Shown here: positions 4,099 through 62,666 of the stretch, in pieces | Layout of the letters: every line of letters begins with the position of its first letter | Numbering within the stretch: the first letter of the stretch is position 1 | Assembly: GCA_017427945.1 (NCBI GenBank) | Contig: JAFRRT010000038.1 | Coordinates: 17,785-81,784, forward strand | Direction of reading: 5' to 3' | DNA: 64,000 nucleotides | Source: Muribaculaceae bacterium | GTDB taxonomy: Bacteria; Bacteroidota; Bacteroidia; Bacteroidales; Muribaculaceae | Notes under the pieces: model-generated | Seen by the model: only the letters and a program-made list of their open reading frames with translations | Told to the model about the DNA's origin: nothing | Databases searched by the model: none | Program-made: the position numbers and the translations under genes

Positions 4099-4995
4099 TT
4101 ACTTAACGGGACGCGGGGGACGGGGTGCGCCGGGGCGGGGAGCACCGGGACGGGGACCTGCGGGCTTGGCATCGTCAACACCGAGGGTCTCAATGTCGAA
4201 AATCAGGGTCTCGTTGGGCTCAATGCCGCGGTTGCCCTGAGGACCGTAAGCGAGTTCACCGGGGATAACCACGGTAACCTTGCTGCCGGGCTTCATGAGC
4301 TGAATCATCTCGGCGAAGCCGGGGATGACTTGCTTGAGGTTGAAGGGCACGGGCTGCTCACCACTCTTGTCAAATACGCTATCGTTGAGGTGACGGCCTA
4401 CGTAGTTCACTTTTACTACGTCACTGTCGCTGAAGTTCTTACCCTCGCCCTCGGTAATCACCTTATAGGCGATACCGCTCTTGGTAAAGGTGTAGCTCTT
4501 GTCATTTTTCAGCTTAGCCATGTACTCCTCGCCAGCCTTCTTGTTGGCGATGGCCTTGGGTGACTGTTCCATAGCCTTGTTGAGCAGGGGCTCAATCTTG
4601 CTCTGGAGAGCCATCAAGTCTTCCTGACCCACGGGAGTGGTCTTCAACAGACCTTCACGCAGGTGCTTCATGAACAGGCTCTTGTTGATAGGCATACCAC
4701 ACTGCTGCTCGATGCCGGCATAAAGCTGGGCAATCTGCATACCCATCTGGAGACCCTGCATGAAAGCCTTGCTGGTGTCGGCGTTAGCGATGTACTCCAT
4801 ACCCTTGAGGGCCTGTTCCATGTTGATGGTGGAGTCCATAGCGCGCATCTGCTGACCCATACCAGCGCCATAGAGGTCACCGAAAGCGATGCTCAGCGAG
4901 TCCATAGCCTCACTGCTGCCAACTGACTTGCTGTTGCAGCCTGCAAAACCAGCCAAAAGGAGACCGGCTACTGCAAATGCTAAAATCTTCTTCAT
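4099..4995 (-). CDS. FKBP-type peptidyl-prolyl isomerase lipoprotein with Pro/Arg-rich tail
   Basis: The 298-residue protein starts with a lipoprotein signal peptide ending in the lipobox LAGFAGC, so it is probably membrane-anchored and faces the periplasm. Residues about 30-170 form the helical dimerisation region seen in FkpA/Mip proteins. The FKBP domain follows at about 175-275, with VKVNYVGRHLNDSVFDKSG and IPGELAYGPQG. It should catalyse cis-trans isomerisation of prolyl bonds in exported proteins. A low-complexity tail of repeated PRPGA units ends the protein, and the corresponding DNA is a G-rich repeat. It is the last of three consecutive FKBP genes read leftward, 54 bases after the previous one. 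Confidence 0.9.
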   Translation of the reverse strand: MKKILAFAVAGLLLAGFAGCNSKSVGSSEAMDSLSIAFGDLYGAGMGQQMRAMDSTINMEQALKGMEYIANADTSKAFMQGLQMGMQIAQLYAGIEQQCGMPINKSLFMKHLREGLLKTTPVGQEDLMALQSKIEPLLNKAMEQSPKAIANKKAGEEYMAKLKNDKSYTFTKSGIAYKVITEGEGKNFSDSDVVKVNYVGRHLNDSVFDKSGEQPVPFNLKQVIPGFAEMIQLMKPGSKVTVVIPGELAYGPQGNRGIEPNETLIFDIETLGVDDAKPAGPRPGAPRPGAPRPPRPVK

Positions 4996-5049
4996 AATAA
5001 TAAAACTTGTTTTAAAAAATGAATTGAATGTTGATATATAAAATGTTTG

Positions 5050-5571
5050 TTAGTTATTCTTCTCTACCTTGAGCAACTGCACGTCAAAGATGAGGGTGGA
5101 GTTGGGCAGAATCTGGTCGCCAGCGCCCTTGGAACCATAGGCCAGCTCGCTGGGGATGAAAAGCCTGTACTCCGAGCCTTCGCTCATGAGCTGCAGACCC
5201 TCGGTCCAACCGGGGATGACTTTGTCCAGGGGGAAGGTTGCGGGCTCACCACGCTCGACGCTGCTGTCAAACACGGTGCCGTCAAGCAGTCGGCCGGTGT
5301 AGTGTACGGTCACCATGTCGGTGGGACCGGGCTTGGCACCGGTGCCTTCTTTCAATACCATGTATTGCAGGCCGCTCTTGGTTTGAACGACGCTGTCGTT
5401 CTTGGCGTTCTGCTCTAGGAACTCACGGCCCAGCTCTTTATTGTCCTTGATCTGCTGGCCATAATCAGGGGTAGCCTGCTCGGTTGTTTCCTCGTTAGAT
5501 GTGTTGTTGCTGCAGCTTGCCATGCCCATGAAGAACAGGGCAGCCATTGCAATCACAAATACCTTTTTCAT
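5050..5571 (-). CDS. FKBP-type peptidyl-prolyl isomerase, lipoprotein
   Basis: This 173-residue protein has a lipoprotein signal (MKKVFVIAMAALFFMGMASC) and one FKBP domain over roughly residues 65-170. The family landmarks VTVHYTGRLLDGTVFDSS, IPGWTEGLQLM and IPSELAYG are present. A short linker of about 45 residues replaces the long helical N-terminus of the neighbouring FkpA-like protein. It is expected to act as a prolyl isomerase or chaperone in the periplasm. The C-terminal part is nearly the same as in the upstream gene (both end LIFDVQLLKVEK), which suggests local duplication. It lies 26 bases after the cytoplasmic FKBP gene. Confidence 0.9.
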   Translation of the reverse strand: MKKVFVIAMAALFFMGMASCSNNTSNEETTEQATPDYGQQIKDNKELGREFLEQNAKNDSVVQTKSGLQYMVLKEGTGAKPGPTDMVTVHYTGRLLDGTVFDSSVERGEPATFPLDKVIPGWTEGLQLMSEGSEYRLFIPSELAYGSKGAGDQILPNSTLIFDVQLLKVEKNN

Positions 5572-5597
5572 TGTATGAATTATTGAATAGTTGTAGT

Positions 5598-6188
5598 TTA
5601 GTTCTTCTTTTCCACCTTGAGCAACTGCACGTCAAAGATAAGGGTGGAGTTGGGTTGGATGGGGCCAGTGCCGTGAGGACCGTAGGCGAGGTTGGAGGGG
5701 ATGAACAGCCTGTAGGCAGCGCCCTCGCGCATCAGTTGCAGACCTTCTACCCAGCCGGGAATCACCTGACCAACGGCGAAAGTGGCGGGCTCGCCACGCT
5801 CTACGCTGCTGTCAAATACGGTGCCGTCAATCAGCTTGCCGGTATAGTGTACAGTAACCACGTCGTTGGGGCCGGGCTGGAGGCCGTCGCCCTCTTTCAC
5901 AACCTGGTACTGCAGACCGCTGGCGGTAACCTTCACGCCCTCGACGTCCTTGTTCTTCTCGAGGTATTCGCGACCCAGACGCTCGTTCTGCTCAGCGCCT
6001 TGTTTCTCCAAATTGGTGAAATACTCAGTGACAATCTGCTTTGCCTCGTCAAAGGTCATCTTCTGCTCTGCGCCTTCAAATACGGCACGCAAGCCATCGG
6101 CAAAGTCGTTGATATTCAGTTCTCTGATGCCTGAGCCAATGAAGTTTCCTCCCATGCTCAAGCCCAATGCGTAACTCAATTTATCCAT
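5598..6188 (-). CDS. FKBP-type peptidyl-prolyl isomerase without signal peptide
   Basis: The protein has 196 residues and starts MDKLSYALGLSMG, the dimerisation segment typical of Mip/FkpA proteins, but with no export signal, so it is probably cytoplasmic. The FKBP domain covers residues about 95-195 with VTVHYTGKLIDGTVFDSS, IPGWVEGLQLM and IPSNLAYGPHG, which contain the usual active-site aromatic and Asp residues. It is the first gene of the leftward FKBP run and lies behind a TATCTTTG promoter box shared back to back with the sirtuin gene region. Confidence 0.9.
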   Translation of the reverse strand: MDKLSYALGLSMGGNFIGSGIRELNINDFADGLRAVFEGAEQKMTFDEAKQIVTEYFTNLEKQGAEQNERLGREYLEKNKDVEGVKVTASGLQYQVVKEGDGLQPGPNDVVTVHYTGKLIDGTVFDSSVERGEPATFAVGQVIPGWVEGLQLMREGAAYRLFIPSNLAYGPHGTGPIQPNSTLIFDVQLLKVEKKN

Positions 6189-6220
6189 TGAAAAATCATT
6201 CTTTTTTGTAAAAAACGGTG

Positions 6221-6228
6221 CAAAGATA
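6221..6228 (-). promoter_or_regulatory. -7 promoter box of the FKBP gene run
   Basis: TATCTTTG on the minus strand, 32 bases before the ATG at 6188. No convincing -33 TTTG is seen at the right distance. Confidence 0.5.
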
Positions 6229-6327
6229 GTGATTTATGTGATTGGGGTGTGCGTTTTTGGAAAAATTTTACTATTTTTGCTATCACATTATACTATTACA
6301 CCTTTTCGTCAACCCAAAAAGTGCTCA

Positions 6328-7041
6328 ATGACTATGAATAAGAAAAAATTAGTGATTTCGTCAGGTGCCGGCATCAGCGCCGAGAGTGGCATCAAGACCT
6401 TTCGTGATGCCGATGGACTGTGGGAGAATTATCCCGTGATGGAAGTGGCGAGCCACGAGGGCTTCCTGCGCAACCCTGCGCTCATACACAAGTTCTATAA
6501 CGAGAGGCGTGAGCAGTTGATCAACGCCCAGCCCAATGCCGCCCATCTGGGACTGGTGGAACTGGAAAAGGACTTTGACGTGCGTGTCATCACTCAAAAC
6601 GTTGATGACCTGCACGAGCGCGCCGGCAGCACCAACGTGCTGCACTTGCATGGCGAGTTGATGAAGGTGCGTTCACTCAGGCACGAGGAGCGTGAGTATG
6701 TCCTGCCGTGTGACCAGTTGACCGACAAGGGGTTAGTGACCAGCGTGGATACGCGCGACCCCTACGATGACCCTGTAAGACCACACATCGTGTTCTTTGG
6801 CGAAGCCGTACCTAATATGGAGGCCGCCGCCCAGCTGGCGCATGACGCCGACATCTTTGTTGTCATCGGCACCTCGCTGGTGGTGTATCCTGCAGCGGCC
6901 CTCATCCAGTATGTGAAACGCGGTGTGCCCATCTACTACATTGATCCCAAGCCCGCCTCTGTACCCGACTGGGTACACGTTATCCAGAAGCCCGCAACCC
7001 AAGGTGTTGCCGACCTCATCGACATCCTGCGCAAGGGCTGA
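6328..7041 (+). CDS. cobB: NAD-dependent protein deacylase (sirtuin, CobB/SIRT5 type) lacking the zinc cysteines
   Basis: The start is placed at ATG 6328 (MTMNKKKLVISSGAG), because the upstream extension of the frame is non-conserved and overlaps the promoter area. The 237-residue enzyme shows the NAD-binding GAGIS and GIKTFRD motifs, TQNVDDLHERAG, the catalytic His in HLHGE, and a GTSLVVYPAA C-terminal motif. It removes acyl groups from lysines using NAD. FYNERREQL carries the Tyr-x-x-Arg pair that CobB and SIRT5 use for succinyl or malonyl groups. The zinc-ribbon region has only one Cys (LPCDQL) where four are usual. It is divergent from the FKBP run and followed by a strong terminator. Confidence 0.9.
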   Translation: MTMNKKKLVISSGAGISAESGIKTFRDADGLWENYPVMEVASHEGFLRNPALIHKFYNERREQLINAQPNAAHLGLVELEKDFDVRVITQNVDDLHERAGSTNVLHLHGELMKVRSLRHEEREYVLPCDQLTDKGLVTSVDTRDPYDDPVRPHIVFFGEAVPNMEAAAQLAHDADIFVVIGTSLVVYPAAALIQYVKRGVPIYYIDPKPASVPDWVHVIQKPATQGVADLIDILRKG

Positions 7042-7068
7042 AAACGAAGCCCTTCATGTTAAATGCTT

Positions 7069-7115
7069 AAACCACGAGTTGCGCCAACAAACAATTGGTG
7101 CAACTCGTGGTTTTT
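7069..7115 (+). terminator. Strong intrinsic terminator (19-bp stem), possibly bidirectional
   Basis: AAACCACGAGTTGCGCCAA at 7069-7087 pairs with 7095-7113 with a single G-T wobble and a 7-base loop, followed by T residues. It lies between the convergent sirtuin and LytTR genes. Confidence 0.85.
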
Positions 7116-7163
7116 AAATACTTTGCTTTTTGCCTAAATCACTGCAATGAGTATCTCAAGGGC

Positions 7164-60364: not shown

Positions 60365-60571
60365 ATGATGAACGAAGAAAACATTGGAACTTGGGCAGGT
60401 CTCATCTGGAACGCCCTGAACGACGCTAAGAAGGGTCTGAATCTGAAGGACCTTCGCAAGGTGACTAAGCTCAAAGTTAACGAGATGCATCTTGCCCTCG
60501 GTTGGCTCGCCAAGGAAGGTAAGCTCAACTTCAAAGAGGTTAAGGATGACATCCAGGTAGCACTGCGCTAA
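60365..60571 (+). CDS. Small winged-helix protein (DUF2582)
   Basis: The 68-residue protein reads MMNEENIGTWAGLIWNALND and then LNLKDLRKVTKLKVNEMHLA, ending in a wing-like DDIQVALR. This matches the DUF2582 winged helix-turn-helix family of small Bacteroidota proteins. DNA binding is likely from the fold but no target is known. Its strong promoter box and following terminator suggest an abundant single-gene transcript. A second ATG lies one codon in. Confidence 0.85.
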   Translation: MMNEENIGTWAGLIWNALNDAKKGLNLKDLRKVTKLKVNEMHLALGWLAKEGKLNFKEVKDDIQVALR

Positions 60572-60617
60572 GCAATTACCTGTTCCTGGATAAAGAAGCA
60601 TATCCCTGATATAGCAG

Positions 60618-60647
60618 CGATGGCGTGGATTCGTTTCCGCGCCATCG
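60618..60647 (+). terminator. Terminator of the DUF2582 gene
   Basis: CGATGGCG (60618-60625) pairs with CGCCATCG (60640-60647), followed by a T-rich stretch with G interruptions. Confidence 0.65.
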
Positions 60648-60673
60648 TTGTGTTTGTTGGGTATGTAAATACG

Positions 60674-60799
60674 AAAAACCTGGGTAATAACCCAGGTTAT
60701 CGTTCTGTAAAACAAACCATTACTAAGCACTTAAAGTCACGCGAGACTTCCCAGCCAGCGATAAACAATATTCATTCCATAGCTCTTTAATTTGCTTGA
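60674..60799 (-). ncRNA. Candidate structured small RNA with own promoter and terminator
   Basis: On the minus strand a consensus promoter (60805-60836) is followed by about 125 bases without a gene. A classic terminator closes the unit: AACCTGGGT pairs perfectly with ACCCAGGTT around four bases at 60677-60698, then five T. The transcript can form a long end-closing stem: CTCAAGCAAATTAAAG (60785-60800) with CTTTAAGTGCTTAG (60723-60736), 13 pairs with a one-base bulge and a small internal loop. An inner hairpin AGCTA/TGGCT plus ATGAAT/GTTTAT is also possible. A rod with bulges recalls 6S RNA, but identity is unproven. Confidence 0.55.
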
Positions 60800-60804
60800 G
60801 TCCA

Positions 60805-60836
60805 CAAAGGTAAACACATTTTTTGAATTTACAAAA
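60805..60836 (-). promoter_or_regulatory. Promoter of the candidate small RNA
   Basis: Minus-strand TTTTG (60832-60836), 19 bases, TACCTTTG (60805-60812). One of the best promoter matches in the window, with no protein gene downstream of it. Confidence 0.8.
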
Positions 60837-60839
60837 CAA

Positions 60840-61335
60840 AATCAAAAAATTTTCAAAAAAAAATTATTTCTTTTCGTAAACAGAAATAGCCGTTATCGCC
60901 CATATTGCCACTACCGAAAACAGTAGTTTTTCGTCGATTTGTTGAATTTTTCATCATTTTTGTTGCATATTAAAAATATATAGGCTTATTTTGCGAGATA
61001 TTTATGGATTACTAATTAAAATGATGATGAAATGTAACTGAGATTTTTTCTGCCTGTCAGGGTATTGATGATGAATTCTGCCGGATGCAGAGTTGAATCT
61101 TTTTACATGAATCAATTATGGAAAATAAATTCGCCGAGTAACCTGTTGGATGGGGTGATCGGCTAAAAATGATTGTTGATATGAGAGCGCCACCGCCATT
61201 ATCGTACCCGTGTGCTTTGCAGAACTATGATGCTGCAAGGTGCAATGTTGTTGCAGGTTGGTGGGGCAAATCATCTCCACAATGATAAAAAAAGGACCAT
61301 GAATTAAACGGATGATGTAATTCTGGTCTAATATA
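60840..61335. other. Non-coding AT-rich stretch with nothing recognisable
   Basis: About 500 bases between the small RNA promoter and the insertion sequence. The base composition is AT-rich (poly-A and poly-T runs near 60840-60870). Only weak hairpins such as CTGC/GCAG near 61077 are seen. I find no credible gene. Confidence 0.6.
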
Positions 61336-61344: not shown

Positions 61345-62666
61345 ATTAGTGTCCCGTTAAAATTGGGACGAGTTAAATATTAATCAAAAAGCCCCGGAAT
61401 GAGGGGACCAAATCGTTCCTTGACATGATTGAATTCAGTCTTTTCGAACAACTCGCGTAGAGGTGTTTTGTCCGTCAGTGATATGCTGAGTATCTGCAAG
61501 ACCTCATAGGTTGAGCGTTCCAGCCTCATGTCATGTTGCACAATTGCAACCAGGCAATAGACCGTAATGGCTGCGCTGATCTGTATTCTGACTGCATTCT
61601 CGGTGGTGCCCCAGAATTTCTTGATTTTGAGGTGTTGCTTAAGCCATTTAAAGAAAAGCTCAATCTGCCATCTGTTTTTGTAGAGGTTGGCCACTTCCAA
61701 AGCAGAAAGGTGGAAAGCATTGGTGAGGAATGCAAACTCGCGGTCTTGCTCCTCATCATAGAACTTGACAAACCTGAGATTCTCCTTATACTTCTTTGCG
61801 GAGTTAATGTCCGTCAGTTGAATCACCGAGTCCGTCAGCACATTCTTTGGCAGACGGCGTCTCCACTTGATGCATCGGTACTGCAGATTCTTCTTAGCCC
61901 GCACGATGAAAAACGACTCGTGCAGATGAATGCGATAGAGCTCCTTGAAGGCATTGTAGGCTCGGTCGAACACGTAGTAAGACCCTGATTCATAATGAAT
62001 CACACTCATTGCCTTGGAATCGTGAACCGATGCGGTCGTTATATGGAAGAAAGCTGGCACCTGCGATTCGAGGTCGTACAGGACATGGGTTTTGATGCCC
62101 CCTTTTCTCTTGCGGAACTTAGCCCACCAGAAAACGGAAAGGCAAAGCGGTATGGTCGACGAATCAAACGCATAGACGTTCCCGTCCAGTTTGAAGATAT
62201 CCGTCACCCGTTTCTGCCTGGCCTGCTCCATCATGAAGAAAGCGAACTCCTCAAAGATGCGGTAGTCTCTATTCTGGTTAGCTGTGGCGAAAGTGGTTTT
62301 GGCGATGGTTTTGCGGCCCATGCCGAGGTGATAGCACTTTGACCGATGAGCCTCCAACGCAACGACCAAGTCCCTTAAACTCTCACGATTGCTGAGCTGA
62401 CCGAACATCAGCGCAAGAAGCTGGTTCCAACAGGTGAAGTTTTTCACATATCGGTTGCCTCCATATTTATCGACGAGATGACGGAACTTATCCTTGTCCA
62501 AAAACTCCACGAGTTGAGCGAAAACGTATTTGGCTTTGTTCATTGCAGTCAGATCTTTGACCGCAAAAATACAAATTCAAATCGTCGCACCCTTAAAAAT
62601 GGCTGTAGTAGACTGAATTTCAATTATTTCAAAGAGCACTTTGTCCACTTTAACGGGACAGTAATG
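61345..62666 (-). mobile_element. Intact IS4-family insertion sequence, 1322 bp
   Basis: The ends carry inverted repeats CATTASTGTCCCGTTAAA (17 of 18 identical; S is G on the left and C on the right), with weaker similarity inward. A 9-bp direct repeat, ATATAGGAT, flanks the element. One full-length transposase gene fills it. I do not assign an ISfinder name. Confidence 0.9.
61380..62543 (-). CDS. IS4-family transposase (DDE, with DUF4372-like N-terminus)
   Basis: The 387-residue protein has the N-terminal region typical of this subgroup (FAQLVEFLDKDKFRHLVDKY, WNQLLALMFGQLSNRESLRD) and the RNase H-like catalytic core. The first Asp is in YAFDSSTIPL, the second in YVFDRAYNAF. The Glu lies in the YREK signature (Y-x2-R-x3-E-x6-K) in LYKNRWQIELFFKWLKQH. 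No frameshift or stop interrupts it, so the element may be active. Its codons and composition do not stand out from the host. Confidence 0.9.
   Translation of the reverse strand: MNKAKYVFAQLVEFLDKDKFRHLVDKYGGNRYVKNFTCWNQLLALMFGQLSNRESLRDLVVALEAHRSKCYHLGMGRKTIAKTTFATANQNRDYRIFEEFAFFMMEQARQKRVTDIFKLDGNVYAFDSSTIPLCLSVFWWAKFRKRKGGIKTHVLYDLESQVPAFFHITTASVHDSKAMSVIHYESGSYYVFDRAYNAFKELYRIHLHESFFIVRAKKNLQYRCIKWRRRLPKNVLTDSVIQLTDINSAKKYKENLRFVKFYDEEQDREFAFLTNAFHLSALEVANLYKNRWQIELFFKWLKQHLKIKKFWGTTENAVRIQISAAITVYCLVAIVQHDMRLERSTYEVLQILSISLTDKTPLRELFEKTEFNHVKERFGPLIPGLFD

Follow-up and report, generated by a model that had tools for sequence, protein, structure and literature searches.

Does the short interval between a DUF2582 gene and a transposase gene, near the end of the window (the whole stretch of 64,000 nucleotides analysed here, from a Muribaculaceae bacterium), encode a small RNA (sRNA), and if so, how might such an RNA act? 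A preliminary description had proposed an sRNA gene on the minus strand. This proposal is now well supported by conservation, by gene order and by covariation in the terminator, and, as judged from the sequence, the stretch is almost certainly a real sRNA gene under selection. The function of its product is discussed below with correspondingly less assurance.

Promoter, terminator and parts of the gene

About 125 bases of the minus strand separate a -7 promoter box from a terminator. The 5' end of the transcript (near 60801-60798) is placed from promoter spacing and its 3' end from the T-run. The features are as follows.

60850 to 60863, minus strand: upstream tract T9GAAAA, UP-element-like; 35 of the 37 loci whose promoter is intact have TTTTTTTGAAAA (exceptions L016 and L017)
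60832 to 60835, minus strand: -33 element TTTG; 37 of 38 loci keep it at 19 bases from the -7 box
60805 to 60812, minus strand: -7 element TACCTTTG, in 37 of 38 loci (L100 is without it)
60674 to 60801, minus strand: predicted sRNA transcript, from the promoter and terminator positions; 38 of 101 genus genomes carry a homologue
60793 to 60801, minus strand: 5' strand ACUCAAGCA, for which 8 pairs (helix P1) are possible with 60722-60729; almost invariant, no covariation
60774 to 60782, minus strand: conserved block CUAUGGAAU, with CUAUGGAA invariant within it (alignment A2, 35 of 35 rows)
60736 to 60766, minus strand: hairpin P2, GUU..CGC..GCU-GNRA-AGC..GCG..GAC, from best local folds
60749 to 60752, minus strand: GNRA tetraloop of P2, GGGA in the window, from the loop count over 36 distinct transcripts
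60722 to 60729, minus strand: 3' strand of P1, UGCUUAGU, with the same test results as the 5' strand
60710 to 60718, minus strand: GGUUUGUUU, competing partner (P1alt) of AAGCAAAUU (60789-60797) in constrained folds
60695 to 60732, minus strand: core AAGUGCUUAGUAAUGGUUUGUUUUACAGAACGAUAACC, differing by one base in one row (L018) of 35
60674 to 60698, minus strand: intrinsic terminator with a 9-bp stem; a hairpin of at least 7 pairs is found in 38 of 38 loci
60365 to 60571, plus strand: DUF2582 winged-helix gene, the convergent neighbour (Pfam PF10771, E 2.2e-16)
61380 to 62543, minus strand: DDE transposase gene, upstream of and outside the sRNA (Pfam PF01609)

Both ends of the unit are as first described. 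The promoter consists of TTTG (60835-60832), a 19-base spacer and TACCTTTG (60812-60805), and the terminator of a perfect 9-bp stem, AACCTGGGT with ACCCAGGTT, around a TATT loop (60698-60677), followed by a T-run; both are conserved in relatives. The promoter architecture with its upstream T/A tract occurs seven times in the 2.77-Mb window genome, against none for a reversed control pattern and, given also its conservation in relatives, we consider it to be more than a chance resemblance. Among the six other sites in this genome, three serve stable RNA genes: one is followed some 250 bases on by GAGTTTGATCCTGGCTCAG, the start of the 16S gene, and two lie ahead of tRNA-Val and tRNA-Thr. The remaining three are found at a contig edge, some 320 bases ahead of an ORF resembling a secreted protein, and ahead of another short stretch, non-coding and ending in a terminator of its own. 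From this promoter class in the window genome we therefore infer that expression of the sRNA is likely to be strong and linked to growth.

The exception to promoter conservation is L100 (RUG12435), where, around position 6600, about 25 bases are gone between the promoter spacer and CATGAGCTATGG. The gap removes the -7 box and the 5' strand of the sRNA, and leaves hairpin, core and terminator intact. Either the RNA is dispensable there and the promoter was naturally lost, or the assembly is in error.

The initial statement that the stretch contains no reading frame holds in substance. Only one of the listed ORFs of at least 60 aa enters the transcript, a GTG frame of 124 aa that crosses the terminator and continues antisense to DUF2582. 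The CUAUGG frame reads 'ME-stop' in 14 of 38 loci and differently in the others, and the core is unvarying at every codon position save for one base in one row. As small ORFs are not kept, except for a 7-codon frame in the core, a coding reading was rejected.

Distribution and neighbouring genes

DNA BLAST detected one copy in 18 of 297 genomes of the family, all of them in the genus of the window (one of 30 genera sampled), and, within that genus, a single match in each of 38 genomes out of 101, the window's own included. A covariance model, R1, again recovered 18 of the 297. In 30 non-carriers of the same genus and four other genomes, it found no match at E ≤1 (0 of 34, with 99 candidates scored per genome); such an empty answer would be weak alone, but the same model does detect carriers. 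The neighbourhoods of DUF2582 in 29 non-carrier genomes (30 loci, L054-L083), searched with filters off, gave 17 bits at best. At the level of the order, 393 genomes were searched with R1, with stricter filters and few candidates scored per genome, and the 392 other than the window's own gave no convincing match. Six matches of 26 to 29 bits (E 0.03 to 0.09 per genome) were rejected, because matches of this kind are expected by chance among so many genomes and because their alignments rest mainly on the terminator; two of them, L087 and L089, also have short stretches in common with the sRNA.

An exact scan for 22 bases of the core in the genome_contigs collection (84,980 species) returned 37 contigs, every one of them labelled as uncultured Bacteroidales or as a family within that order. 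A host appears in five of the titles (roe deer in two; sheep, goat and water buffalo in one each), in each case a ruminant; 24 are 'RUG' records, presumably rumen uncultured genomes, and eight give a sequencing run only. Over the stretch compared, 33 of the 37 named contigs are identical to loci already found, which brings the set to 38 different loci and 36 distinct transcripts. In a DUF2582 protein tree (68 columns, midpoint root), 26 of the 38 carrier loci fall on one side of a branch and 28 non-carriers on the other, with support 100/98; L115 and other carriers with no DUF2582 nearby are omitted from this tree, as are the non-carriers L078 (not recovered at the E cut-off) and L083 (set aside). 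The sRNA is thus very probably kept, as far as such comparisons tell, by a single clade within one Bacteroidales genus of the ruminant gut, and is apparently a single-copy family with one origin. An origin in a mobile element was considered and rejected: the exact core is absent from viral contigs, and no match was found in phages or plasmids.

The neighbouring genes are less constant than the sRNA. DUF2582 is convergent with it in 23 of 34 loci. Of the 37 named loci, 23 have a convergent ORF as the nearest one of at least 100 aa downstream, 8 have a co-oriented one and 6 have none; for six of these eight, another copy of the same locus has a convergent DUF2582 directly downstream, which leaves L095 and L113. 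Upstream, the nearest ORF is divergent in 24 of the named loci, co-oriented in 8 (at distances of 395 to 1665 bases) and absent in 5. In L103, L104, L109, L119 and L124, a 490-aa ORF converges on the sRNA in place of DUF2582; in L103 it is a sugar transporter gene adjoining a xylose-isomerase-like gene. Gene order on the 3' side is thus changed in these five loci, with the sRNA unit intact. Since the sRNA is kept while neighbouring genes differ among loci, it looks like a transcription unit of its own, retained while its neighbours changed.

Two observations concern the upstream side. The DDE transposase gene of the window (61380-62543) also carries DUF4372; nothing in the flanks of the other 33 loci, which extend to 1.5 kb at most, matches it at the protein level. 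In L104, an ORF of 837 aa (4607-7120), encoding cohesin and dockerin domains, lies divergently upstream of the sRNA.

Conservation and predicted structure

The 3' part of the RNA hardly varies. Among the 210 pairs formed by the 21 carriers that have both an adjacent DUF2582 and a row in A2 (a set that does not include L018), columns 78-111 of A2 are identical in every pair, compared with 90% identity over columns 1-111 and 78% in the variable stretch 29-47; for the neighbouring DUF2582, the same pairs are 68% identical at 4-fold sites and 87% at the protein level. Over all 35 rows, the 38-nt core shows no change other than the one base in L018. Beyond the terminator, the DNA aligns poorly among loci. 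Because the third positions of the 7-codon frame are invariant too, this conservation points to selection acting on the RNA. A part so long that hardly varies between species makes a regulator of other genes probable, and because the invariant stretch exceeds one pairing seed, the RNA is likely to have more than one target or a protein partner as well.

The overall shape first proposed, a rod closed by a 13-pair stem, is not supported by the alignment. Uncompensated stem-breaking variation, which the preliminary description had itself named as a refutation, was looked for in the closing stem, and its inner pairs break mostly without compensation: in a set of 35 rows that includes the window, column pairs 16-77 and 18-75 are each broken in 30 rows and compensated in only 2 and 1, and pair 20-74 fails in 7. 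The outer 8 pairs vary hardly or not at all and show no double change, so that they are neither supported nor refuted. The mean pair probability of the stem is 0.93 in the window, 0.77 in L019 and 0.09 over 37 loci including the window. The closing stem is therefore largely peculiar to the window, and there is no rod-shaped consensus.

Hairpin P2 and the terminator fare better. The GCU-GNRA-AGC stem is part of the best local fold in 37 of 38 loci (the exception is L030), and its loop is a GNRA in 36 of 36 distinct transcripts (GUGA in 29, GGGA in 6, GAGA in 1). Beside the CGC/GCG pairs, a U facing an A in many rows becomes an A facing a U in L019 and L117. Against P2, it has zero counted double changes in the model-fitted alignment and its middle helix is paired in only 74% of cells there; the single-sequence probability of the tetraloop stem averages 0.55. 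In the terminator, four of the eight modelled pairs change on both sides with pairing retained. For the structure as a whole, the percentage of paired cells, the number of double-change cells and the covariation score exceed those of all 500 shuffles, the double changes lying all in the terminator. Two other counts are unexceptional: 61 of 500 shuffles reach that of double-changed pairs, and 479 of 500 that of pair types. The fold was not confirmed as more than chance: the full transcript has a z score of -1.91 (9 of 200 shuffles as good), and removal of the terminator brings it to 0.05 (102 of 200). In predicted ensembles the core is only partly unpaired.

Known families and possible modes of action

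No Rfam family matched the window at its gathering score. With a low threshold (E up to 10, positions 60500-61000), 13 matches were recorded, each scoring far below the cut-off of its family (MicX, RF01808, for instance, had 21.6 bits for a gathering score of 75), and these were discarded; 6S RNA (RF00013) and 6S-Flavo (RF01685) were not among them. A likeness to 6S RNA had been suggested from the rod shape. When searched with covariance models, neither of these two families matched in the window, nor in the genome at E ≤1, in a test of low power: of 40 Bacteroidales genomes, none has an RF00013 match above the cut-off and one has a match below it. 6S RNA is a long rod closed by end-to-end pairing, with a central bubble; the sRNA does not have this form, the inner pairs of its closing stem being broken in 30 of 35 rows and the stem reaching a mean probability of 0.09. 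It resembles the two 6S families in size range (187 and 108 model positions) and in a growth-linked expression that, for the sRNA, is only deduced; it differs from them in matching neither family, in having no rod-shaped consensus and in being found in one clade.

Characterised sRNAs of the order offer parallels, for GibS and MasB at the level of their published descriptions. GibS of Bacteroides thetaiotaomicron (145 nt) is also intergenic and similar in size, and a conserved single-stranded portion of it pairs with mRNAs, acting at translation-initiation regions; its seed is located in the 5' portion (PMC7366714), whereas the near-invariant part of our sRNA lies 3', ahead of the terminator. 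The FopS family of Bacteroides (about 65 to 70 nt, 14 paralogues in B. thetaiotaomicron) also acts at translation-initiation regions, where it blocks translation, and has canonical sigma-ABfr promoters, comparable to the Bacteroidota housekeeping type seen here; it is, however, multicopy and shorter (PMC11697453), whereas the sRNA gives a single match in each of 38 carriers. Kinship with FopS was rejected: the 35-nt seed consensus printed in that report (R1') gave a local score of 13, equalled by 585 of 1000 shuffles. Proteins of the RRM_1 class, to which the partner of FopS belongs, were found in none of five genomes tested here (three carriers and two non-carriers), the control, Bacteroides ihuae, being positive; an RbpB-like partner is therefore not expected. 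MasB of B. thetaiotaomicron (about 100 nt) is similar in size, narrowly conserved and highly expressed, and differs in being activated by Cur (PMC10994844).

In the open-licence literature, searched for the core string, for Bacteroides and Muribaculaceae sRNAs and for rumen metatranscriptomes, we found no description of the sRNA. It forms a new family within a known kind of RNA. To our knowledge, most characterised Bacteroidales sRNAs come from Bacteroides. Here we have a clean single-copy family, with a stable-RNA-type promoter and an extremely conserved core, in bacteria of the ruminant gut, and with it a testable question: which partner holds about 38 nt of RNA almost without change, when a search for the RRM-type partner known from Bacteroides found none in these genomes?

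Our main reading, to which we give a probability of about one half, is that of an independent gene for a clade-specific, trans-acting regulatory RNA of about 125 nt that works through its core. Such an RNA would be abundant in growing cells by virtue of its rRNA/tRNA-type promoter, part of the invariant stretch would be exposed and would base-pair with mRNAs, most likely near start codons, and pairing would block translation as reported for GibS and FopS in Bacteroides. This reading is favoured because the strong-type promoter, the GNRA hairpin and the near-invariant stretch ahead of the terminator all fit it. As in trans-acting intergenic sRNAs generally, the sequence has its own promoter, an intrinsic terminator and no co-transcribed gene; there is one copy per carrier, the promoter is retained in 37 and the terminator hairpin in 38 of 38 loci, and the downstream gene is mostly convergent. 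Against it stand L100, deprived of the -7 box and 5' strand, the co-oriented upstream ORF in 8 of the 37 named loci, the partial pairing of the core in predicted ensembles and the negative search for RRM_1 proteins in five genomes, as does the outcome of a target test. A target search of the core against 333 predicted start regions (461,785 bases, 17% of the genome) with 40 shuffles gave nothing significant: the mean was -11.92 for the core and -11.44 (sd 0.41) for shuffles, 4 of 40 of which were as low, and the top ten and the count at -14 or below were equalled by 5 and 4 of 40, respectively. For the 5' region the corresponding figures were 23, 17 and 39 of 40 (mean, top ten and count).

This lack of target enrichment would suit an RNA that instead uses its GNRA hairpin and core to bind RNA polymerase, a ribosomal factor or some other protein, working in the manner of 6S RNA, and whose amount follows growth rate by way of the rRNA-type promoter. 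Three further points speak in its favour: the length of the nearly invariant part (about 38 nt, more than a usual pairing seed), the rRNA/tRNA class of the promoter and the lack of a recognised 6S RNA in the window genome. However, the molecule is not rod-shaped (the closing stem averages 0.09 over 37 loci and its inner pairs are broken), a housekeeping RNA would not be expected in one clade only, and the missing 6S match means little when RF00013 passes its cut-off in none of 40 Bacteroidales genomes; we hold this explanation to be possible but unlikely. More doubtful is an RNA with two states, in which invariant AAGCAAAUU would swap between UGCUU (P1) and GGUUUGUUU (P1alt), possibly on binding a ligand, a protein or a partner RNA, and so expose alternate parts of the core. 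Both partners are invariant and, in constrained folds, the two helices are equal on average (-34.05 kcal/mol for P1 and -34.09 for P1alt, the latter better in 20 of 37). Yet the same invariance leaves no room for a covariation test, unconstrained mean probabilities are low (0.09 for P1 and 0.24 for P1alt), and the overlap may be due to chance in an A/U-rich sequence. Slightly more speculative still is a combination of these ideas into a clade-specific global regulator, whose rRNA-class promoter would read out growth rate and whose 38-nt surface and 5' strand swap would switch it between binding mRNAs and binding either RNA polymerase or a ribosome-associated protein; the lineage in question is one without recognised 6S RNA or RRM-type RNA-binding protein.

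Two further explanations seem to us highly improbable. In the window, AAAGAGCUAU is complementary to AUAGCUCUUU in the 16S leader of the same genome, in what we take to be the boxA-like region, so that the sRNA could be an antisense regulator of the rRNA leader. The complement is a perfect 10 nt (window 60779-60788, minus strand, against L130 1-276), but 8 of 200 shuffled leaders match over as great a length, the longest run in other loci is 7 to 9 nt, mostly elsewhere (against the leader of the window genome), and the bases involved are among the variable ones (GAGCUAU/GAACUAU variants). The other is a cis-acting leader or attenuator, with a short leader peptide followed by a terminator: in 37 of the 38 loci, the 7-codon frame, MVCFTER, does stop close to the start of the terminator. 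It is truncated in one row, however, and its invariance at third positions argues for selection on the RNA. Moreover, with DUF2582 convergent in 23 of 34 loci, a downstream gene that could be so controlled is conceivable only in L095 and L113 among the 37 named loci, six of which end too soon.

Returning to the promoter, the architecture is shared by a second candidate sRNA of the window genome. It has no Rfam match at gathering score and is located on the plus strand of L128 (G000:C8, 1501-1650), where about 70 bases are followed by the terminator-like GAATGGTTAATCCATTC and a T-run.
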